A DNA stretch of 24,087 nucleotides, from positions 1 through 24,087 of IMG/VR virus record IMGVR_UViG_3300035162_003439; one strand, 5' to 3'. The notes under the pieces were generated by a model, which was given only the letters and a program-made list of their open reading frames with translations, was not told the origin of the DNA and ran no database searches. The position numbers and the translations under genes are program-made. Each line of letters begins with the position of its first letter. Positions within the stretch are counted from its first letter, which is position 1. Shown here piece after piece: positions 14,402 to 23,784 of the stretch. Source of the stretch: a virus.

Positions 14402-15247
14402 ATGGCTCAACCAGCAAGTAGGTCGGACCTAATAAATTACTGCAAAAGGCAACTGGGAGCACCAGTTTTAGAAATCAACGTTGCTGATGAGCAAATTGAT
14501 GATCTAATAGATGATGCTTTGCAATACTTTCATGAAAGACATTTTGATGGTGTTGTTCAAACATATTTAAAGTATAAAATCACACAGGGAGATGTTGATA
14601 GGGGACGAGGAAGAGGAGGGAGCAATCCTGTAGGACTAGTTACTACAACCGCATCTTCAACTATAGATGGTTCATCTGTAACTTTTTCTTTTGAGGAAAA
14701 TAGTAATTACGTACAAGTTCCTCCACAAGTTATTGGAATAAACAAAATATTTAGATATGACGGGTCACAAACAGTGACTAATAATATGTTCAGTGTAAAA
14801 TATCAAATGTTCTTGAATGACATTTATAATTTTAGTTCTACTGAAATATTATCATATGCAATGACAAAAAGATATCTTGAAGATATGGACTTTGCATTAA
14901 ATACAGAGAAGCAGATAAGATTTAATCAAAGACAGGATAGACTTTACTTAGATGTTGATTGGGGAGAAGTATCTAAGGATGATTATCTTATCCTTGATTG
15001 TTATAGACTTTTAGATCCAAATGATTTTAGCAGAGTTTGGAATGATTCATTTCTTAAGAGATATGTAACTCAACTTATCAAAAGACAGTGGGGACAAAAC
15101 CTCCTGAAGTTCCAAGGAGTAAAACTTCCAGGTGGTATAGAATTAAATGGTAGACAAATATACGATGATGCTCAAAAAGAACTTGATGCAATCAGAGAAG
15201 TTATGTCTAACACTTATGAACTTCCTCCATTAGACATGATTGGTTAA
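14402..15247 (+). CDS. 13: neck protein gp13
   Basis: 281 residues, against 309 for T4 gp13. In T4, gp13 and gp14 form the neck joining the filled head to the tail. The N-terminus has the family look: LINYCKRQLGAPVLEINV, then ADEQIDDLIDDALQYFHERH. Further on are RYLEDMDFALNTEKQIRFN, LYLDVDWGEV and KRYVTQLIKRQWGQNLLKF, as expected for gp13 of cyanophage type. A short Arg/Gly-rich stretch (GDVDRGRGRGGS, near residue 65) interrupts the conserved N-terminal part. It is followed immediately by gp14 and preceded by its own late promoter, so the neck genes probably form a transcription unit. Confidence 0.93.
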   Translation: MAQPASRSDLINYCKRQLGAPVLEINVADEQIDDLIDDALQYFHERHFDGVVQTYLKYKITQGDVDRGRGRGGSNPVGLVTTTASSTIDGSSVTFSFEENSNYVQVPPQVIGINKIFRYDGSQTVTNNMFSVKYQMFLNDIYNFSSTEILSYAMTKRYLEDMDFALNTEKQIRFNQRQDRLYLDVDWGEVSKDDYLILDCYRLLDPNDFSRVWNDSFLKRYVTQLIKRQWGQNLLKFQGVKLPGGIELNGRQIYDDAQKELDAIREVMSNTYELPPLDMIG

Positions 15248-15251
15248 TCGT

Positions 15252-16703
15252 ATGCTTAATCCATATTTTCAGCAAGGGGCCGGATCTGAGCAAAATTTAA
15301 TTCAAGACCTTATCAATGAGCAGTTGAGGATGTATGGTATTGAGGTACATTATCTTCCAAGAAAATATTTGACCGAAAAAACAATTATTAGAGAAGTAAT
15401 ACAATCTAAATTTGACGATGCATATCCAATAGAAGCGTATATTGACAATTTTGAGGGATACAATGATAATACTACAATATTATCAAAGTTTGGTATACAA
15501 CAAGAGCAAGAATTAAATTTAATTATTTCAAAGGAAAGATTTGAAAATTATATCTCTCCTTTAATAAAGAATGAGCAGAATATAAAATTATCTACAAGAC
15601 CAAAAGAAGGAGATTTAATTTATTTCCCTCTTGGTGATAGACTTTTTGAGATTAAATTTGTTGAACATGAAAAACCATTTTATCAACTACAAAAGAACTA
15701 TGTTTATGAGTTGAGATGTGAACTCTTTAGATATGAAAATGAGGTTATTGACACCGGTATAGAAGATATTGATGATATTTTAACTGGTGGCGATAGTGAT
15801 GGTCTGATTGATGGAAGTGATGGACTTAGTAGTATTATCGGAAGTACTCAAACTCTCACCCTTGTTGGAAATGGTGTAACAGCAACAGCAGTTGCTGGAA
15901 TTATCACTGAGGGTGGCATTCGCACAATTACGATGACAAACAGAGGTGGAGGATACACATCTGTACCAAGAGTTGCAATATCATCTGCTCCAACAGGAGG
16001 GATTACTGGTATTGCATCTGCAGTTATGATTGGTGGAATAAACGTATGCAATCAAAGTGCCAATCCGAGAGCAAGATCTGTTCAGAATGCTGATATTGTA
16101 AATCCGGGATCTGGATATACAATTGCCCCTGGAGTTCAGTTTATTGGTGGTGGAGGTGCTGGTGCAGCTGCAACAGCGACAGTCGCTGATGGTATTGTAG
16201 GAATAATAACGATCACTGCCGGTGGATCTGGATATGTCACATCACCAACAATTACATTCAGCAATGAAGTATTCTTGACTGGTGTAAGTACTGCAGGTGC
16301 TGCTGCAACAGCAGTTGTCAGTGCTGCAGGCACTATCAGTGCTATTCGCTTTATTAATGCTGGATTGGGATATAGCACCGCTCCTACGATTACGATCGCG
16401 GATGCAAATTCGAGTTCTACTGGTGAGTTTGTATTTAACGAGATTGTAACAGGATCTAGTAGTGGGGCAACAGGTAGAGTCAGAGTTTGGAACACTGAAA
16501 CTAATGTTCTTGAGGTAGCAAACGTCACAGGAACATTTACTCTTGAAGAGAATATTGTTGGATCTACCTCAGGTGCAACACATCAACTTAGAAAAGTTGA
16601 TGTTAATCCGAGCGATGATGGATTCTCAGATAATGTTAATATAGAAACCGAGGCAGATTTGATTATAGATTTCAACGAATATAACCCATTCGGAATGCCC
16701 TAA
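15252..16703 (+). CDS. 14: neck protein gp14 with internal repeat insertion
   Basis: 483 residues from ATG 15252. The frame also offers TTG at 15240, overlapping gp13 by 8 bases. I prefer the ATG because the family begins MLNP(Y/F)F and it follows the gp13 stop by 4 bases, although neither has a clear Shine-Dalgarno. The N-terminal ~175 residues are typical gp14: MLNPYFQQGAGSEQNLIQDL, then INEQLRMYGIEVHYLPRKY, with FYQLQKNYVYELRCELFRYE further on. The last ~20 residues (ADLIIDFNEYNPFGMP) look like the normal family C-terminus. Between them lie about 255 residues of GxGY and SSGA repeats (15840-16605). T4 gp14 is only 256 residues, so this is a family core with an inserted domain array. The array may project from the neck surface (inference). 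Confidence 0.93.
   Translation: MLNPYFQQGAGSEQNLIQDLINEQLRMYGIEVHYLPRKYLTEKTIIREVIQSKFDDAYPIEAYIDNFEGYNDNTTILSKFGIQQEQELNLIISKERFENYISPLIKNEQNIKLSTRPKEGDLIYFPLGDRLFEIKFVEHEKPFYQLQKNYVYELRCELFRYENEVIDTGIEDIDDILTGGDSDGLIDGSDGLSSIIGSTQTLTLVGNGVTATAVAGIITEGGIRTITMTNRGGGYTSVPRVAISSAPTGGITGIASAVMIGGINVCNQSANPRARSVQNADIVNPGSGYTIAPGVQFIGGGGAGAAATATVADGIVGIITITAGGSGYVTSPTITFSNEVFLTGVSTAGAAATAVVSAAGTISAIRFINAGLGYSTAPTITIADANSSSTGEFVFNEIVTGSSSGATGRVRVWNTETNVLEVANVTGTFTLEENIVGSTSGATHQLRKVDVNPSDDGFSDNVNIETEADLIIDFNEYNPFGMP
15840..16605 (+). repeat. GxGY and SSGA repeat array inserted in gp14
   Basis: Successive units contain GVTATAVAGIITEGGI with GGGYTSVPRVAI; GSGYTIAPGVQFIGGGGAG; AAATATVADGIVGIITI with GSGYVTSPTITF; and GAAATAVVSAAGTI with GLGYSTAPTITI. 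They are followed by two units of the form F..(N/E)E.I.GS(S/T)SGAT (near 16430-16470 and 16540-16590). The repeats are imperfect at DNA level. The same unit types occur in the large virion protein, the DUF4815-type giant and, degenerately, gp8. Confidence 0.8.
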
Positions 16704-16746: not shown

Positions 16747-17748
16747 ATGTTTGAATATTTTTATAACGAAATTTTGAGGAGAACTATTGTATCATTTGGT
16801 ACTCTTTTTAATTCAATAACTATCAAACAAACTAATTCTTCTGATAATGTGATCAACACTATCAGGGTTCCTTTGTCTTATGGTCCAACTCAAAAGTTTC
16901 TTGCAAGAATTGAACAGCAAGCAGACCTGAATAAATCAACTTCAATAACATTACCCAGATTATCATTTGAGTTTACTGGACTGACATATGATCCTACAAG
17001 AAAGGTAACAACCACACAACAATATACAGTAAAAGACCCAGATGATGGATCTGAGTCTAAAAAAATATACATGCCAGTTCCATATAATATGCAATTTGAA
17101 CTGAGTATTATGACAAAATTAAATGATGATGCTCTTCAAATTGTAGAACAAATTTTACCATACTTCCAACCAGCATATAATTTAACTGTCGAGTTAGTAG
17201 AGTCAATACAAGAAAAACGTGATATTCCAATAATCCTTGAGAATATCACCATGCAAGATGATTATGATGGAGATTTCACAACAAGAAGAGTTCTTCTTTA
17301 TACCTTAAGATTTACTGCTAAAACATATCTGTTCGGTCCTGCTACCTCTGCAACCAAGGATATTATCAAGAGATCTACCATCAGTTATCTTACTGGAACA
17401 GATGTATCAAATACAACAAGAGAACTTAGTTACTCTTCAGTTCCAAGAGCAACTAAGAACTATACAGGAGATGCTGCTACCACTGTATCTGAGGATATTG
17501 CTAAGACTAGTAAAATAATTGAAGTTGAGAGTATAAGTGGTCTGACTGCCAAATCTTATATTGCTATTGATGATGAAGAACTATTCATTAAATCCATCAC
17601 TGGCAATAAACTCACCGTCTTGCGAGCACAAGATAAGACAACTGCAACTGAACATCTTAGAGGAGCAGAGGTACATGTTATCAGTGCTGCCGATAATGCC
17701 TTGATTGCAGAAGGTGATGACTTTGGATTTAGTGGAACAATAACATGA
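16747..17748 (+). CDS. 15: tail sheath stabiliser / tail terminator gp15
   Basis: 333 residues, against 272 in T4. In T4, a gp15 hexamer caps the tail tube and sheath and docks to the neck. Matches are strong: MFEYFYNEILRRTIVSFGTL against T4 MFGYFYNSSFRRYATLMGDL, and QIVEQILPYFQP is identical. MPVPYNMQFELSIMTK, KRDIPIILENI and RRVLLYTLRFTAKTYLFGP complete the core (to about residue 200). The C-terminal ~110 residues differ. Residues 256-313 (17512-17685) form an RG..GT module with DDEELFI and VLRAQDKTTATEH, resembling modules in the large fibre-type proteins of this window. Shine-Dalgarno AAGGA is 6 bases before the ATG. The stop overlaps gp16 (ATGA). Confidence 0.96.
   Translation: MFEYFYNEILRRTIVSFGTLFNSITIKQTNSSDNVINTIRVPLSYGPTQKFLARIEQQADLNKSTSITLPRLSFEFTGLTYDPTRKVTTTQQYTVKDPDDGSESKKIYMPVPYNMQFELSIMTKLNDDALQIVEQILPYFQPAYNLTVELVESIQEKRDIPIILENITMQDDYDGDFTTRRVLLYTLRFTAKTYLFGPATSATKDIIKRSTISYLTGTDVSNTTRELSYSSVPRATKNYTGDAATTVSEDIAKTSKIIEVESISGLTAKSYIAIDDEELFIKSITGNKLTVLRAQDKTTATEHLRGAEVHVISAADNALIAEGDDFGFSGTIT
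17512..17685 (+). repeat. RG..GT-type module, copy 3 (gp15 C-terminus)
   Basis: A 58-residue module: KIIEVESISGL, then SYIAIDDEELFIKSITGN, then LTVLRAQDKTTATEHLRG, then AEVHVIS. It has the same order of elements as 794-970 and 12378-12573. It lies outside the part of gp15 that aligns with T4. Confidence 0.55.
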
Positions 17749-18167
17749 CAAACAAATTTGATAGTTTAAATAATGAATTCAATGTTAAAGGAGACATTGT
17801 GCAATCTGAAGTTGTTAGTGCTAAGATTGAAAAAGTAAAAGAAACCTCAGATGATATTAAAAAAGATTATGATTATACGCGAGGTAATCTTTATAGTATA
17901 ATCGAGAAGGGGCAAGAAGCAATAAATGGTATTTTGGAACTTGCACAAGAAAGTGAAATGCCTAGAGCATATGAAGTTGCAGGTCAATTAATTAAAAACG
18001 TTGCTGATGCCACAGATAAATTAATGGATCTTCAGAAAAAACTGAAGGATGTTGAAGAAGAAAAACAATCTCGCGGGCCCTCTACTGTTAATAATGCACT
18101 CTTCGTTGGATCTACTGCAGAACTTGCGAAGATGCTAAAACAGGGGGTAAAAGAAGAGAATAAATAA
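17745..18167 (+). CDS. 16: terminase small subunit gp16
   Basis: 140 residues, against 164 in T4. The small terminase recognises DNA and stimulates the gp17 motor. The family plan is visible: an acidic start, KKDYDYTRGNLYSIIEKGQE (T4 has DDYGVVRRNMHFQQQ), then a helical core with ESEMPRAYEVAGQLIKNVAD (T4 NADSPRHMEVFATLMGQM), a coiled-coil segment LMDLQKKLKDVEE, and the C-terminal NNALFVGSTAELAKML (T4 QNATVFMGSPTELMDEI). It overlaps gp15 through ATGA, suggesting translational coupling. Unlike T4, where genes 16 and 17 are adjacent, the large subunit is nearly 4 kb downstream here. Confidence 0.92.
   Translation: MTNKFDSLNNEFNVKGDIVQSEVVSAKIEKVKETSDDIKKDYDYTRGNLYSIIEKGQEAINGILELAQESEMPRAYEVAGQLIKNVADATDKLMDLQKKLKDVEEEKQSRGPSTVNNALFVGSTAELAKMLKQGVKEENK
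18159..18166 (+). promoter_or_regulatory. T4-type late promoter before coiled-coil gene
   Basis: AATAAATA, one base off TATAAATA. The gp16 TAA stop (18165-18167) overlaps its last two bases. There are 23 bases to the GTG start of the next gene, with CGGAG at 18174-18178 between them. Confidence 0.65.
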
Positions 18168-18189: not shown

Positions 18190-20370
18190 GTGGCATTAAA
18201 GAAGCCTTCAGATTTTTTTGGTAAGAATAAAAACGATTTTGATAAAATCAAAGATACTGTTTCTGCGGAAAAAATTGAAACGGTATCCGAAGCTTTTAGT
18301 GCTTTCAAAACAAACCTAAATCATATTCAATCAATATCAGATTTCTCAGATACGGTTGAGAACTTTAAGGAAAATATTGATAGAGTTGAGAGTATTTCCA
18401 AAGAAATCTCAGAAGTAAAAGAGGATATTAGGGGACTGATTAGTAAAGAGGATTTAAATGAGGCAATGGTTGCCCATCTTCTCTTTGTTGAAGAATCCAT
18501 CAAAAAAATTGAAGGAAGAATAAAGAGTGTTAATGGCGATACCATTGATAAAATAAAAGAGGATTTTACAAACCTTTCCCGGACTGTAGAAAATTTTGTA
18601 GATGTTGATATTCCAAGTTATAAGAAATTAGTATCAGAATCTGAAATTAGATTTGATACTAGATTTTCAAATTTTAAGGGTCTGGTAGAAGAAGACCTTG
18701 ATGGTATTAGAGAAGATGTTAATAGAGAAGTAAACAGTGCCTTAGCAGATGTTGAGACAGTTAATGAAAATATACTATCAGAATTAAAGAAAGATTTAAA
18801 GCGGACAACAAAAGATGTCAATGAGACTGTAAGCAATCTTGTTAATGAAGAGTTTCCAAAATACAAAAAACTTTTTGCAGAAACAGAATTAAAAACTGAA
18901 CAAAGAGTTTCGGCTTATGATGATGCAATTGATAAATTAAACTTAATGGTGAAAGAATTCACCGAAAATGAAATTCCAAAGTATAGCAATCTATTAGTAG
19001 AAACTAAACTTAAATCCGAAAAAGAAGTAAAGCAATTAGAAAAAAATGTATTAGAAGAAGTTGAGTTTATCAAAGAAAAAATTGAACTTTTGTCCAATGA
19101 CGTTACAGAAAAAACCTCTGATATTGATTCATTAGTTGAATCGAAGGTTCAGGAATTGCAATCTACTATTGATGATTCTAAACAAAAAATAGGAGAGATA
19201 TCTAATGTATATACTTCTCTCTACAAAGATTTTAAAAATAGAGAAATTCATGAAAACAAAAAATTAGAGGAATACTCTGGAGAACTTGATAAGTTCTCTA
19301 AGAAATTTTCATTCTTTGAAGAAACTATCGCAGAAGATGTAAGAGAACTGCAAAATGTTCTAGACATTAGTACAACAAAATACTATGACATTCTCAAAAA
19401 TGAAGTAGGAGAATTTGAAGAAAATATGTCCAATCAAATTAAGGACTTGGAACTTAATTTAGTTGTTAATGAGAAGCATATTAAAAAACAAAATGAAAAT
19501 ATTGAGAGTATTAAAGAAGAAGTAAAAGATGTTATAGAGAGACTTCAAATTAATTCTATTGAGGAAAAGAATAAATCTTTATCAGAAAAAGTAGTTTATA
19601 TTGAAAAAATTCTCACAGAGTTTAATGAGAAAGCATTATTAAAAGAAGATAATCCAACTCTGCCAGGAGATGCATCAACAAAAAATTCTGCAGATCCATT
19701 AACTCCTCTGGATCAAAATTTTGTAACTATTGATCAATTACAAAATCACTATAAACTATTCATAAACCGAATTCAGCAACAAATTGCTACCATTGGTGGT
19801 GGCGGTGCTGGATTCATCAAGGATCTGGATGATGTTACCTTTGACCAAACCACAGGAACTAATCAATTACTCATTTACAATGGAGCGAAATGGGTTGGTA
19901 TTGCAAGCACATCAATTAGTGGAGAAAGCAAACTTGTAGATTTAACTGATGTTGATGCTAGTAATGTTGGTGATGGTAGATTTTTAAGGTATGATGCTTC
20001 TGCTCAAGAGTTTACATTTGCACCAGTATCGGCTACTAATCTTGAATTAATTGCTGGAGATATACAATCAGGTATTCTTACTACAACCAGTACCAGTGCT
20101 GCTGTGGTTATGTCTATAAGTGCATCTACATATAGATCTGCAAACTATCAGGTTCAGGTTACAAGAGGAAGTAATTATAATATGTCAACTATTAATATTA
20201 TTCACGATGGAACTAATACATATCAAGCTGAGTATGGCATAATCAATCAACCAATTGGAGTTGCTACATTCTCATCTGATATTAGTGGTGGAGCACTTAG
20301 ATTAATTGGTCATCCAACATTTTCATCAGAGACAACTTTTAAAGTAGTTTTTACTGCATTGGAAGTATAA
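18190..20370 (+). CDS. long coiled-coil fibre-like virion protein
   Basis: 726 residues from a GTG start, chosen because it follows CGGAG (18174-18178) by 11 bases and a late promoter by 23. Residues ~1-480 are almost entirely charged, heptad-like alpha helix rich in Glu, Lys, Asp and Ser without Cys, containing a repeated IPxYKKL motif (separate entry). A short linker holds DNPTLPGDASTKNSADP. Residues ~515-726 are beta-type, starting after a GGGGAG hinge: FIKDLDDVTFDQTTGTNQLL, then LVDLTDVDASNVGDGRFLRY. LxDV...G..L.Y repeats like these occur in phage fibres. The last ~100 residues (YQVQVTRGSNYN, IIHDGTNTYQAEYGI, ISGGALRLIG) look like a small beta tip domain also common in fibres. A trimeric helical stalk with a C-terminal head is the likely form. 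The attachment site is unknown; a neck whisker like T4 fibritin is one possibility. Confidence 0.8.
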   Translation: MALKKPSDFFGKNKNDFDKIKDTVSAEKIETVSEAFSAFKTNLNHIQSISDFSDTVENFKENIDRVESISKEISEVKEDIRGLISKEDLNEAMVAHLLFVEESIKKIEGRIKSVNGDTIDKIKEDFTNLSRTVENFVDVDIPSYKKLVSESEIRFDTRFSNFKGLVEEDLDGIREDVNREVNSALADVETVNENILSELKKDLKRTTKDVNETVSNLVNEEFPKYKKLFAETELKTEQRVSAYDDAIDKLNLMVKEFTENEIPKYSNLLVETKLKSEKEVKQLEKNVLEEVEFIKEKIELLSNDVTEKTSDIDSLVESKVQELQSTIDDSKQKIGEISNVYTSLYKDFKNREIHENKKLEEYSGELDKFSKKFSFFEETIAEDVRELQNVLDISTTKYYDILKNEVGEFEENMSNQIKDLELNLVVNEKHIKKQNENIESIKEEVKDVIERLQINSIEEKNKSLSEKVVYIEKILTEFNEKALLKEDNPTLPGDASTKNSADPLTPLDQNFVTIDQLQNHYKLFINRIQQQIATIGGGGAGFIKDLDDVTFDQTTGTNQLLIYNGAKWVGIASTSISGESKLVDLTDVDASNVGDGRFLRYDASAQEFTFAPVSATNLELIAGDIQSGILTTTSTSAAVVMSISASTYRSANYQVQVTRGSNYNMSTINIIHDGTNTYQAEYGIINQPIGVATFSSDISGGALRLIGHPTFSSETTFKVVFTALEV
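18601..19026 (+). repeat. repeats with ~40-residue period in coiled-coil stalk
   Basis: Three imperfect copies of a motif: DVDIPSYKKLVSESEIRFD (18601), NEEFPKYKKLFAETELKTE (18844) and ENEIPKYSNLLVETKLKSE (18964). The offsets are 243 and 120 bases, or 81 and 40 residues, so a near-constant 40-residue period with one degenerate copy is likely. Pro in each copy would interrupt the helix at regular intervals. Confidence 0.7.
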
Positions 20371-20435: not shown

Positions 20436-22121
20436 ATGGCTAAGAACGGCAAATGTAAAGCAGGACAATATTACTGCTATACTGATAAAGTATGTAAAGC
20501 AATTCCTAAGGGTTTTATGGTAGACCCAGAGGGAATGCTTCGTAAAGAAAATGGACATTCCGTTGATGATAATAAAAACGGTAATGGTAATGGAGAAGTG
20601 AGTGAATCGAAAAGTGGTGATAGTTCTTTGCGTGACTGGTTTGGCAAGAGTAAGTCTTCTGATGGGAAGCCTGGTTGGGTTCAATTGGGCGGTAAATACT
20701 CAGGGAAACCCTGTGCTAAACAACCAGGACAAACTACAAAACCAAAATGTGGTTCCAGTAAAATGAAGCGCAATCTTTCTAAAGATGAGGAGCAAGCAGC
20801 TTTTCGTAGAAAGAACAAAAAAGATCCAAACCCAAATCGTTCAGGGAAGGCAATCAACGTGAAAACTGAAGAATTTATAACTCTACCACTCAATATAGAA
20901 ATCCCTAGTGATATTAGAGATTTTAACTTGGGACTTATGTTCCGTGAAAGTTTGGATATTAACAGTGGAATGCTATTCATCTTTGAAGAAGTTGAGCAGC
21001 AATCCTTCTATATGAAAGAAACAAAAATTCCTCTTGACATTGCGTTCATCACAGAGGATGGAATAGTTGAAAGCATCAAACAATTAGAACCGTATGACGA
21101 AACCCCAGTAACTTCCGAAGGAGAAGTTCTGTGTGCTTTAGAAGTAAATCGTGGATGGTTCGCAGAAAATAATGTTGAAGTAGGTGATGAAATTGAAATT
21201 GATGAGGCAGCGGGAGAAAAAGACGCTTGCTATCATAAAGTCAAGTCACGCTACAAAGTTTGGCCAAGTGCATATGCGTCAGGAGCACTTGTCAAATGTC
21301 GTAAAAAAGGTGCAAAGAATTGGGGCAATAGCACCAAGAAAGAAGAATTCTCTAATTGGAGAGATAATTACATTGCAACAGATTATGAATCGGTAGATAT
21401 CATAACACCAGAACCTTTAACCGCTACAAAAGGTATTGGTAGCGATATGCTTGATGAAGCATGCTGGAAAGGTTATGAGAAGAAAGGTATGAAAACTATG
21501 TTTGGAAAGAGATATCCAAACTGTGTTAAGAAGACAAAGAAAGAAGAAATTCAACTGATATCAAAAACTCCTTTAGATGAAAAGAAAGGTTGTATGCACA
21601 ATCATAAAGGTGAAGAGTGTCCAGTACATGGTATAAAAGAATGTCCTGGTTCCGTTGAAGAAGCAGTAAGAATGCCAGCAAAAACTGGTAATCTTGTCAG
21701 CGTTCTCTTCAGGTTTAGAAGTCAGACTATTATGTTGAAGATGTTCTTCCCTCAAGTATCTTTACCAACCAGATCTGATATTCAAGATCAAATTGATAAA
21801 ATATATCCTGGCGCGAAACTATTAACACACACAGTTTCCGACTATGAACCAGGACAACCAGTCCTACACGCAGAAGCAGCTGCGTGGACAAAAAAAGCAG
21901 GAAAAAATAAAGAAGGTGGACTCAACGAAAAAGGACGAAAGTCTTATGAAGCGCAAAATCCAGGATCTGACCTTAAAGCACCAAGCAAGAAGGTTGGAAA
22001 TCCCAGGAGGGCATCCTTCTGCGCTAGAATGAAAGGAATGAAGAAAAAGTTAACATCATCAAAGACAGCAAACGATCCAGATAGTAGGATCAATAAGTCT
22101 CTTAGAAAGTGGAATTGCTGA
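20436..22121 (+). CDS. mosaic protein: DUF192 domain plus several Cys-containing modules
   Basis: 561 residues, Lys-rich, with no signal peptide or membrane helix seen. Modules in order: (1) residues 7-30 with C7, C14, C20 and then a Gly/Asn linker; (2) 64-142 with SLRDWFGK, GWVQLGGKYSGKPC and FRRKNKKDPNPN; (3) 145-256, a DUF192 (COG1430) domain: GLMFRESL, GMLFIFE, SFYMKETKIPLDIAFI and ALEVNRGWF; (4) 264-300 with CYHKVKSRYKVWPSAYASGA; (5) 341-364 with ACWKGYEKKGM and RYPNCV; (6) 386-405 with CMHNHKGEECPVHGIKEC, His/Cys-rich and possibly metal-binding; (7) 410-480; (8) 484-561, GGLNEKGRKSYE to TANDPDSRINKSLRKWNC, resembling the DUF6321 type. The ATG is forced because an in-frame TGA precedes it. 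DUF192 domains are of unknown function, and modules like 1, 2, 4, 5 and 8 recur in marine phage proteins. The role is unknown; the place between terminase subunits and a late promoter suggest a late or virion function. Confidence 0.82.
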   Translation: MAKNGKCKAGQYYCYTDKVCKAIPKGFMVDPEGMLRKENGHSVDDNKNGNGNGEVSESKSGDSSLRDWFGKSKSSDGKPGWVQLGGKYSGKPCAKQPGQTTKPKCGSSKMKRNLSKDEEQAAFRRKNKKDPNPNRSGKAINVKTEEFITLPLNIEIPSDIRDFNLGLMFRESLDINSGMLFIFEEVEQQSFYMKETKIPLDIAFITEDGIVESIKQLEPYDETPVTSEGEVLCALEVNRGWFAENNVEVGDEIEIDEAAGEKDACYHKVKSRYKVWPSAYASGALVKCRKKGAKNWGNSTKKEEFSNWRDNYIATDYESVDIITPEPLTATKGIGSDMLDEACWKGYEKKGMKTMFGKRYPNCVKKTKKEEIQLISKTPLDEKKGCMHNHKGEECPVHGIKECPGSVEEAVRMPAKTGNLVSVLFRFRSQTIMLKMFFPQVSLPTRSDIQDQIDKIYPGAKLLTHTVSDYEPGQPVLHAEAAAWTKKAGKNKEGGLNEKGRKSYEAQNPGSDLKAPSKKVGNPRRASFCARMKGMKKKLTSSKTANDPDSRINKSLRKWNC

Positions 22122-22128
22122 GTAAGTT

Positions 22129-23784
22129 ATGTCTGATAATGTATACCTTGGCAATCCAAATCTAAAAAAAGCAAATACACCGATAGAATTCACACAGGAG
22201 CAAATCCTTGAATTTATGCGGTGTAAGGAAGATCCTGTTTATTTTGCAAACAACTATATTAAAATTGTTTCTCTTGATGAAGGATTAACTCAGTTTCATC
22301 CTTATGATTTTCAAGAGAAATTAATTAACAATTTCCATGAGAATAGATTTAATATATGTAAGATGCCACGACAGACTGGTAAGTCTACCACTGTTGTGTC
22401 ATATCTACTGCATTATGCTGTCTTCAATGACAGTGTTAATATTGGCATCCTGGCAAACAAGGCAGCTACAGCAAGAGAACTTTTAAATAGATTACAAACT
22501 GCATACGAAAACTTACCCAAGTGGATGCAACAGGGTGTGTTAGTATGGAACAGAGGTTCATTGGAGTTAGAAAATGGGTCTAAAATTCTTGCTGCTTCAA
22601 CTTCCGCAAGTGCTGTCCGAGGTATGTCATTCAATATACTCTTTTTGGATGAGTTTGCATTTGTTCCAAATCACGTTGCTGATTCGTTTTTTGCCTCTGT
22701 TTATCCTACTATTACTAGTGGTAAAAATACGAAAGTTATTATTGTCTCGACGCCACATGGAATGAATCACTTCTACCGCATGTGGCACGATGCGGAAAGA
22801 AGTAAAAACGAATATATTCCTACAGATGTTCATTGGTCTGAAGTTCCTGGTAGAGATGATGTTTGGAAAGAACAGACTATTGCTAACACATCAGAACAAC
22901 AATTTAAAGTTGAGTTTGAATGTGAGTTCTTAGGATCAGTAGATACATTAATTGCACCAAGTAAGTTAAGAACTTTAGTATATGATACTCCTATAAAACA
23001 AAGTGCAGGATTAGATGTATATGAATTGCCAAAAGAAAATCATGACTATGTTTGTACTGTTGACGTAGCAAGAGGCGTAGGTGAAGATTATTCTGCTTTT
23101 GTTGTAGTTGATATTACAGAGTTTCCTCATAAAATAGTTGCAAAGTATAGGAATAATGATATCAAACCAATGCTTTTCCCAAATATCATTTATGATGTTT
23201 GTAAAAATTACAATAGTGCTTTTATACTATGCGAGGTAAATGATATTGGAGATCAGGTTGCAAGTATCATACAGTATGACCTAGAATATCAAAACCTATT
23301 GATGTGTTCAATGAGAGGTAGAGCAGGTCAAATTGTTGGCCAAGGATTTTCTGGAAAGAAAACTCAACTTGGGGTCAAGATGAGTAAGACTGTTAAAAAA
23401 GTTGGATCACTCAATCTAAAGACAATGATTGAGAGTGATAAAGTTGTTTTTAATGATTATGAAATTATCTCAGAACTAACCACATTTATATCAAAACATA
23501 ATTCATTTGAGGCAGAAGAGGGATGCAATGATGACCTTGCTATGTGTTTGGTCATATATGCATGGTTAGTGGCACAAGATTACTTTAAAGAATTAACCGA
23601 TCAGGATGTTAGAAAAAGATTATATGAAGAGCAAAAAAATCAAATTGAACAAGACATGGCACCATTTGGATTTATGAGTGATGGTTTAGATGATAGTAGT
23701 TTTGTTGATGGTGATGGTGATAGATGGTTTAATGCGGCTACGGATGAGTATGGTGATAGATCTTATATGTGGGAGTATAGATAA
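22129..23784 (+). CDS. 17: terminase large subunit gp17 (ATPase and nuclease)
   Basis: 551 residues, against 610 in T4. It is the ATP-driven packaging motor docked on the portal, and also cuts the concatemer. The ATPase domain shows Walker A PRQTGKST (80-87), Walker B ILFLDE (170-175, catalytic Glu175) and the coupling motif STPHG (207-211). The RNase H-fold nuclease domain shows the three acidic residues in TVDVARGVGEDYSAF (Asp312), CEVNDIGDQ (Glu369) and GCNDDLAMC (Asp468 or Asp469). All key residues are present, so it should be active. It starts 7 bases after the preceding stop without a clear Shine-Dalgarno. The C-terminal tail after residue ~490 is acidic and Gly/Asp-rich (DDSSFVDGDGDRWF). 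The next gene follows its stop with no gap. Confidence 0.98.
   Translation: MSDNVYLGNPNLKKANTPIEFTQEQILEFMRCKEDPVYFANNYIKIVSLDEGLTQFHPYDFQEKLINNFHENRFNICKMPRQTGKSTTVVSYLLHYAVFNDSVNIGILANKAATARELLNRLQTAYENLPKWMQQGVLVWNRGSLELENGSKILAASTSASAVRGMSFNILFLDEFAFVPNHVADSFFASVYPTITSGKNTKVIIVSTPHGMNHFYRMWHDAERSKNEYIPTDVHWSEVPGRDDVWKEQTIANTSEQQFKVEFECEFLGSVDTLIAPSKLRTLVYDTPIKQSAGLDVYELPKENHDYVCTVDVARGVGEDYSAFVVVDITEFPHKIVAKYRNNDIKPMLFPNIIYDVCKNYNSAFILCEVNDIGDQVASIIQYDLEYQNLLMCSMRGRAGQIVGQGFSGKKTQLGVKMSKTVKKVGSLNLKTMIESDKVVFNDYEIISELTTFISKHNSFEAEEGCNDDLAMCLVIYAWLVAQDYFKELTDQDVRKRLYEEQKNQIEQDMAPFGFMSDGLDDSSFVDGDGDRWFNAATDEYGDRSYMWEYR

Follow-up and report, generated by a model that had tools for sequence, protein, structure and literature searches.

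T4-like cyanophages are abundant ocean viruses. In a 24,087-base virus record from such a phage (IMG/VR record IMGVR_UViG_3300035162_003439; this whole stretch is hereafter the window), we analysed an open reading frame (ORF) at 20436..22121 on the + strand, which is intact, starts with ATG and encodes 561 amino acids (aa), as a preliminary description of the same DNA had stated. The product is a member of a catalogued, uncharacterised family of virion proteins, PHROG 727 / T4-GC 119, with relatives annotated as structural or virion proteins, and consists of a string of small modules that ends in a DUF6321 domain. We propose, with a probability of roughly 0.45, that it is a head- or packaging-associated virion protein, most likely internal and nucleic-acid-binding, which DUF6321 would anchor to the head.

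Family and module architecture

The window protein matches PHROG 727, a family labelled as of unknown function, over residues 49-561 (E 8.4e-156), and its orthologue in S-SM2 is T4-GC 119 (65.4% identity over 99%). With this family it shares the profile match, the position between gp16 and gp17 and the modules; the members read range from 233 to 994 aa, and DUF192 and other modules are variably present in them. Searches with tblastn gave matches in 491 of 50,697 phage records, in 77 of which a single place covers at least 80% of the query. Escherichia entries are absent from the organism tally of these 491 records, in line with the earlier statement that no T4 gene corresponds, T4 itself not having been searched separately. 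A wholly new gene family is ruled out by the PHROG 727 match, and the idea of an undescribed component finds no support in its strict sense, the T4 GC0119 copy in S-E7 being already labelled 'structural protein'. The protein does fall in a single catalogued family, but that family is not a characterised one: no papers on DUF6321 or T4 GC0119 were found in the open-access literature, which is the scope of 'not described' here.

The preliminary description was right that the protein is modular. Profiles for nine segments, searched over the ORFs of the first 90 related loci, define modules M1 to M9, all on the + strand. M1 (residues 1-42; 20436..20561) is an N-terminal three-Cys module, supported by profile and alignment, with predicted strands and a predicted local distance difference test score (pLDDT) of ~80 over residues 11-30. 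M2 (residues 60-143; 20613..20864), the LRDWFGK...C...PKC module, is basic (isoelectric point, pI, 10.3) and occurs elsewhere as separate small ORFs. The DUF192 domain that had been recognised from the sequence is M3 (residues 145-258; 20868..21209; acidic, pI 4.1); it matches Pfam PF02643 at 153-255 (E 1.9e-25, 89.3 bits versus a cut-off of 27) and PDB 3m7a/3pjy both by sequence and by fold, although those solved chains (PF02643, COG1430) consist of DUF192 alone, unlike the window protein. M4 (residues 260-302; 21213..21341), the CYHKVKSRYKVWPSAYASGALVKC module, is basic (pI 10.1), and is followed by the acidic linker motif M5, SNWRDNY...DIITPEPL (residues 303-336; 21342..21443), also defined by its profile. 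M6 (residues 337-372; 21444..21551), the ACWKGYEKKGM...PNCVKK module, is a predicted two-strand hairpin (pLDDT ~58-68), M7 (residues 378-408; 21567..21659) is a candidate metal site with the conserved pattern CxH...CPxH...C, and M8 (residues 409-478; 21660..21869) is a beta-beta-alpha-beta module by profile and predicted structure. The protein ends in M9 (residues 479-561; 21870..22118), a basic region (pI 10.4) with the Cys pair C529/C561 that contains DUF6321 (PF19846, 72 positions) at 489-559 (E 1.5e-21, 77.2 bits versus a cut-off of 28.5); GGLNEKGRKSYE is the beginning of this Pfam domain, which had previously gone unrecognised.

M4 also aligns with the first part of DUF5872 (PF19197), at residues 267-308 of the window protein and under the cut-off (13.8 bits versus 27.5). 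One stand-alone M4 from another phage passes this cut-off with 39.7 bits; a stand-alone M2 aligns with model positions 50-101 and stays below it, at 24.5 bits. Because M4 and M2 match different parts, the Pfam model seems to span M4 plus M2; in the window protein M2 stands before DUF192, apart from M4.

A full-length AlphaFold2 (AF2) model from 51 alignment rows has a mean pLDDT of 58 and a predicted template modelling score (pTM) of 0.24, with better islands at M1, M2, part of DUF192, M8 and M9 and low-confidence stretches between them, a predicted pattern compatible with beads on a string that does not prove such an arrangement. Foldseek comparison of the full-length model with the PDB yielded, up to E 0.001, nothing except DUF192 chains, and a separate model of M8+M9 (pLDDT 80, pTM 0.38) retrieved no match at that limit. 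The best VIA-align comparison of M8 with a ribosomal LX/eL20-like fold (Z 6.3, root-mean-square deviation 2.9, 67 aligned residues) lies in the tool's range for common arrangements. M9 is barely covered by the fold-comparison rows, and we therefore make no claim of a new fold. Profile searches against PDB sequences returned no match at E 5 for M9, M2 or M4 and nothing credible for M8.

Module order and copy number in relatives

Composition varies widely among relatives. Each sample of related loci comprises the best 80 confirmed stretches, from at least 596 for the search with the window protein, which favours near relatives, and from at least 560, at least 595 and at least 336 for the others; contigs within one collection are related, so that the counts are not independent. 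Among 57 complete M9-bearing ORFs from the first sample (L001-L080, ORFs cut by contig ends excluded) we found 23 module orders. M1 is present in 43, M2 in 54, DUF192 in 34, M4 in 53, M5 in 26, M6 in 51, M7 in 32, M8 in 45 and M9 in 57; a DUF192 match is thus absent from 23 of them, and M6 is doubled in 6. M8 also occurs, at 11 loci, as a separate ORF of 103-119 aa abutting the main one. Some features of the order are constant: M2 lies ahead of M4 in all 53 complete ORFs that have both, M9 is the final module in 57/57, and the protein ends with M9 in 82 of 83 matches. S-SSM7, which lies outside the 57-ORF set, is an exception, its M1 following M9.

With the E limits applied, tblastn located M9 at 504 places in 504 phage records, M4 at 366 in 366 and M2 at 349 in 349, many of the records being near-duplicates. 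With one place per record, M9, M4 and M2 look like distinct parts of one set and not like swappable copies. M6 was found at 112 places in 112 records as well, but S-E7, S-SSM7 and a Bellamy contig each carry two copies by profile, so that no such statement is made for M6. In ten records searched with profiles (nine phages and the Bellamy contig of IMG/VR), M9 gave one match in all ten, M4 and M2 one each in eight, M6 one or two in nine, M8 one or two in six and M1 one in five. The modules had been described as interchangeable units. Variable composition bears this out in part, with its 23 orders, optional DUF192 and doubled M6, but free swapping is ruled out by the fixed order of M2 before M4, by M9 standing last and by the single place per record.

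Relatives in virions

Relatives of the window protein are virion components, as the early suggestion of a packaged or injected protein had anticipated. S-CREM2 splits the module set between ORF137 (M8+M9) and ORF160 (M2+M6+M4), and both are listed in the virion mass spectrometry data (Table 3 of PMC10665884), ORF137 with 4 unique peptides and 4.1% coverage and ORF160 with 7 and 13.1%; the terminase genes of S-CREM2 are absent from that table. In S-SCSM1 the protein S-SCSM1_29 (42662-44215), which carries M1, M2, M4, M6, M8 and M9, is annotated 'virion protein', a label that the record gives to neither terS nor terL.

Indirect evidence comes from S-SM1. In the stretches of the S-SM2 record that we read, the remark 'similar to Synechococcus phage S-SM1 protein' stands on VrlC, gp13, gp14, gp15, T4-GC 119, gp18-gp21, gp23, gp3 and T4-GC 190 and is absent from gp16, gp17 and the listed replication genes; over 102-151 kb it occurs only on gp23, gp3 and T4-GC 190, amid replication, metabolic and hypothetical genes that lack it. 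Sullivan et al. count 41 proteins in the S-SM1 virion and, in the portion of that work available to us, name T4-GC 190 among them. These record remarks suggest that T4-GC 119 is an S-SM1 virion protein too. Judged from these relatives (S-CREM2, S-SCSM1 and, indirectly, S-SM1), virion membership of the window protein is well supported.

In 42 ORFs of at least 140 aa from one IMG/VR locus set, M6 is the only module detected. Near the cytidylyltransferase gene (T4-GC 190), M6-bearing ORFs lie in L092:609-5236 (S-CREM2), L093 (S-SSM7), L095 (P-HM1) and L101 (S-PM2). With the product of T4-GC 190 reported in S-SM1 and S-CREM2 virions, this suggests a second locus for virion proteins. A weak M6-like match (E 0.05) was seen in Haloarcula californiae tailed virus 1 (NC_021330.1, 11027-11110).

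Stand-alone modules and head or packaging genes

In other phages, modules of the window protein are encoded separately, and their gene orders link them to head and packaging genes. A small DUF6321 gene adjoins the gene for the major capsid protein (MCP) in P-SCSP1g and HTVC201P, in the latter between scaffold and capsid and two small genes from the scaffold, and it lies two genes from the MCP gene in HTVC115P and three in DSL-LC04. A podovirus-led M9 profile found DUF6321 as a stand-alone ORF of 77-137 aa in 76 of the 80 IMG/VR loci kept, unlike the window protein, where it is fused; weak partial M9 matches inside M1 were excluded from the locus set. With a more divergent M9 profile, 49 of the 77 loci with stand-alone M9 have a separate M2 ORF, and 48 of these a separate M4 too. 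M4, M2 and M9 are all separate in 54/153 loci of both sets, M4 directly preceding M2 in each with gaps that are mostly zero or small. In two related contigs, L221 and L231, the order is terS-M4-M2-M9-terL-portal, the L221 portal being P22-like by Pfam.

A small panel of head hallmarks (MCP, portal, scaffold or terL) gave a match in 36/76 loci with stand-alone M9 in the podovirus-led set and in 53/77 in the divergent set; where at least 3.5 kb was available on both sides, the figures are 12/23 and 12/13. Iterated T4 profiles (MCP_T4, 108 matches; gp15_T4, 65) over-collected and were excluded for these loci. PHROG 371, 'major head protein', was matched by 9 of 150 and 16 of 148 neighbour proteins, these sets comprising 150 of 159 neighbours (27 of 29 loci) and 148 of 182 (22 of 27 loci). 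The gene orders are a stronger point for head or packaging linkage than the panel counts.

DUF6321 is also joined to quite different partners. A 1218-aa protein (L119:1557-5210) combines an ADP-ribosyltransferase (ART-PolyVal) with a C-terminal DUF6321, and an 868-aa protein (L103:1604-4207) combines DUF6321 with NUDIX and DUF2213; polyvalent proteins travel with injected DNA. Such fusions, which we also count in favour of an internal head protein, together with the terminal position of DUF6321 in the complete ORFs and the S-CREM2 M2-M6-M4 ORF six genes from the virion-detected cytidylyltransferase, would fit a function of DUF6321 as a head-sorting tag, with the module string as cargo or cargo adaptors that are carried into the head, injected and active on the host after infection. 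We regard this as unlikely: most DUF6321 ORFs at the podovirus-led loci carry no cargo at all, the domain lies at 131-199 in the 868-aa L103 protein, and S-CREM2 ORF160 is in the virion table with no M9 match. If DUF6321 were such a tag, it would mark cargo proteins in marine phage genomes.

Charge and cysteines

The Lys richness noticed earlier is real: the window protein has 73 Lys and 23 Arg against 31 Asp and 46 Glu (pI 9.1). Stand-alone modules are far more basic, with median net charges of +19, +28 and +26 and median pI values of 10.5, 11.4 and 11.7 for M4 (n=54), M2 (n=55) and M9 (n=153), compared with a median pI of 5.1, and 3.2% above 10.5, among 741 other ORFs of 150-500 aa, a mechanical comparison set that is not length-matched.

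Cysteines are found at positions 7, 14, 20, 93, 105, 233, 265, 288, 343, 363, 386, 395, 403, 529 and 561. Where at least five Cys-containing modules had been counted, we find six, with three Cys in M1 and M7 and two in M2, M4, M6 and M9, and every Cys except C233 lies inside a short module. In the 51-row alignment C93, C105, C529 and C561 are conserved in all rows, C265 and C288 in 50 and C343 and C363 in 47. At least two Cys are present in 55/55 stand-alone M2 and 153/153 stand-alone M9; 13 of 54 stand-alone M4 have none, so that the pair is general for M2 and M9 and not for M4. The His/Cys cluster pointed out previously corresponds to M7 and contains a conserved motif, C-x-H...C-P-x-H...C, kept in 42 of 43 distinct M7 copies, with H390 being His in only 20/51 rows. 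The candidate metal ligands are thus conserved, and the predicted structure of segment 367-413 stays below pLDDT 50.

The conserved Cys pairs of M2 and M9, the presence of relatives in virions and the linkage to the MCP gene and, in DSL-LC04, to a cement gene might also be those of a shell-stabilising protein on the outside of the capsid (decoration, cement or neck), its Cys pairs forming disulfides outside the cell. P-SCSP1u bears on this, as it encodes an 84-aa DUF6321 protein 100% identical to that of P-SCSP1g. The available passages of its cryo-electron microscopy report describe a capsid shell that consists of MCP alone and lacks decoration proteins, and a portal-tail composed of gp16, gp22, gp23 and gp28, and do not mention gp20 or gp21. 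From that composition, DUF6321 is not described there as an ordered part of shell or tail; either a disordered internal location or absence from the virion may account for this.

A charge this strongly positive would be atypical of an outer shell protein. The very high positive charge therefore speaks, with the stand-alone DUF6321 gene of a phage whose shell is reported as MCP-only, for rating an outer decoration, cement or neck protein as quite unlikely.

Proposed role

We picture the window protein as a virion accessory protein of T4-like cyanophages, a string of small Cys-bearing, mostly basic modules that an optional DUF192 and the C-terminal DUF6321 complete. M4, M2 and DUF6321 form a unit that is encoded elsewhere as adjacent, separate small basic proteins, often in head/packaging clusters; in cyanophages the three would have become joined, by fusion rather than fission, with further modules added. 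Most likely the protein would enter the head and remain on the packaged DNA, which its basic modules would contact, with DUF6321 as its anchor to the head; it may be ejected together with the DNA. The internal head proteins of T4, IPI-IPIII and Alt, are basic, virion-borne and without a role in the shell; the likeness is one of presumed working only, taken from their general description and not from a comparison of homology.

Several observations weigh against an internal, DNA-binding head protein. Both DNA binding and internal location of the window protein are properties that we infer, and its acidic DUF192 contributes nothing to the former. The coverage of S-CREM2 ORF137 is only 4.1%, and the authors caution, in the part of the paper available to us, that some proteins may merely stay in the CsCl suspension. 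The M8-only ORF S-SCSM1_30 carries no virion label, and three records (S-SM1, S-SM2 and P-SSM2) continue to list T4-GC 119 as 'hypothetical protein'. The S-SM1 remark is an imperfect marker, because the scaffold gp22 lacks it, as does T4-GC 112 of P-SSM2, a 'virion structural protein'. Among stand-alone loci, 40/76 of the podovirus-led set have no head hallmark of the small panel, and a distance of under 5 kb to such a gene would often arise for a random gene too, so that the figure of 36/76, taken with no random-gene control, is only suggestive. The Planktothrix phage Pag-Yong1 has its DUF6321 gene close to genes for a holin and a 'needle head', and the stretch read contains no annotated MCP. 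Absence of DUF6321 from the P-SCSP1u virion would explain the passages on that phage just as well. Fibre-like genes adjoin the gene or lie near it in the window and in some relatives, and a location in the tail is therefore possible.

What is new is the link between the modules of the window protein and a three-gene set that elsewhere often stands beside head or packaging genes, and with it a shared, testable setting for DUF5872 and DUF6321, both of them uncharacterised Pfam families. A bolder and doubtful extension is that M4, M2 and DUF6321 are a widespread, unnamed set of three small, strongly basic, protamine-like virion proteins, Cys-paired in M2 and DUF6321, which in unrelated marine tailed phages would bind the packaged DNA and perhaps cross-link it; in T4-like cyanophages the set would be merged into one protein, to which DUF192 and a candidate metal-binding bead were added. 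Should binding to packaged DNA be true, the set would amount to a nucleoprotein system common to several phage groups. DUF5872 is listed for the Chrysochromulina parva virus genome as well, in the portion of PMC12085832 available to us; if the extension were true, this match to M4 plus M2 in an algal virus would carry part of the set beyond phages.

Genomic setting

In the window, PHROG matches give the order head-tail adaptor, head closure, sheath stabiliser, terS, a fibre-like ORF, the ORF at 20436-22121 and terL. The position between the terminase subunits, as first described, was borne out: gp16, the small subunit and upstream landmark, lies at 17745..18167 on the + strand (PHROG 445, E 1.4e-56) and gp17, the large subunit, at 22129..23784 on the + strand (PHROG 2, E 1.1e-75), 7 bases separating the stop codon of the ORF from the gp17 start codon. 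S-SM1, S-SM2, P-HM1 and S-SCSM1 share the gp16-gp17 placement; the P-SSM2 copy lies between gp15 and gp16, and S-SSM7 has no terminase gene in the stretch read. At related loci with more than 1.5 kb downstream, terL follows the main ORF in 46/50, starting 7-16 bases after its end in 34/50, and where more than 3.5 kb is available upstream, terS is found there in 25/31, up to 5.6 kb away.

So tight a junction with terL, and the occurrence of the M4-M2-M9 triad between terS and terL in L221 and L231, might point to an accessory factor of DNA packaging that acts together with terminase and whose retention in particles is incidental. We consider this improbable, since in S-SCSM1 and S-CREM2 the module proteins are marked or listed as virion proteins and the terminase subunits are not, since DUF6321 lies by the MCP gene in other phages, and since the S-SSM7 gene has no terminase gene among its neighbours in the stretch read. 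We rate a structural or assembly role at the tail fibres or baseplate as very improbable: in the window, S-SM2, S-SCSM1 and RN05-S, fibre-like ORFs adjoin the gene or stand close to it, and the gp16-gp17 interval is described, in the literature passages available to us, as a hot spot of variable genes, but stand-alone modules lie near head or packaging genes in podoviral-type records, and at E 0.1 the window protein has no match among the PHROG tail families. An internal head protein remains our preferred interpretation.

Two other features of the window deserve mention. The ORF at 18190-20370 (726 aa, GTG start), between terS and the modular ORF, looks coiled-coil-like by eye and has partial matches to tail-fibre and unknown-function PHROGs. 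Further upstream, the C-terminal parts of the gp14-like ORF at 15240-16703 (487 aa) and the gp15-like ORF at 16747-17748 (333 aa) resemble PHROGs of virion structural, baseplate or tail-fibre proteins and not connector or sheath families. Beyond virus collections, a scan of genome contigs returned 33 loci with relatives of the modular protein, mostly in marine metagenome-assembled genomes and single cells.

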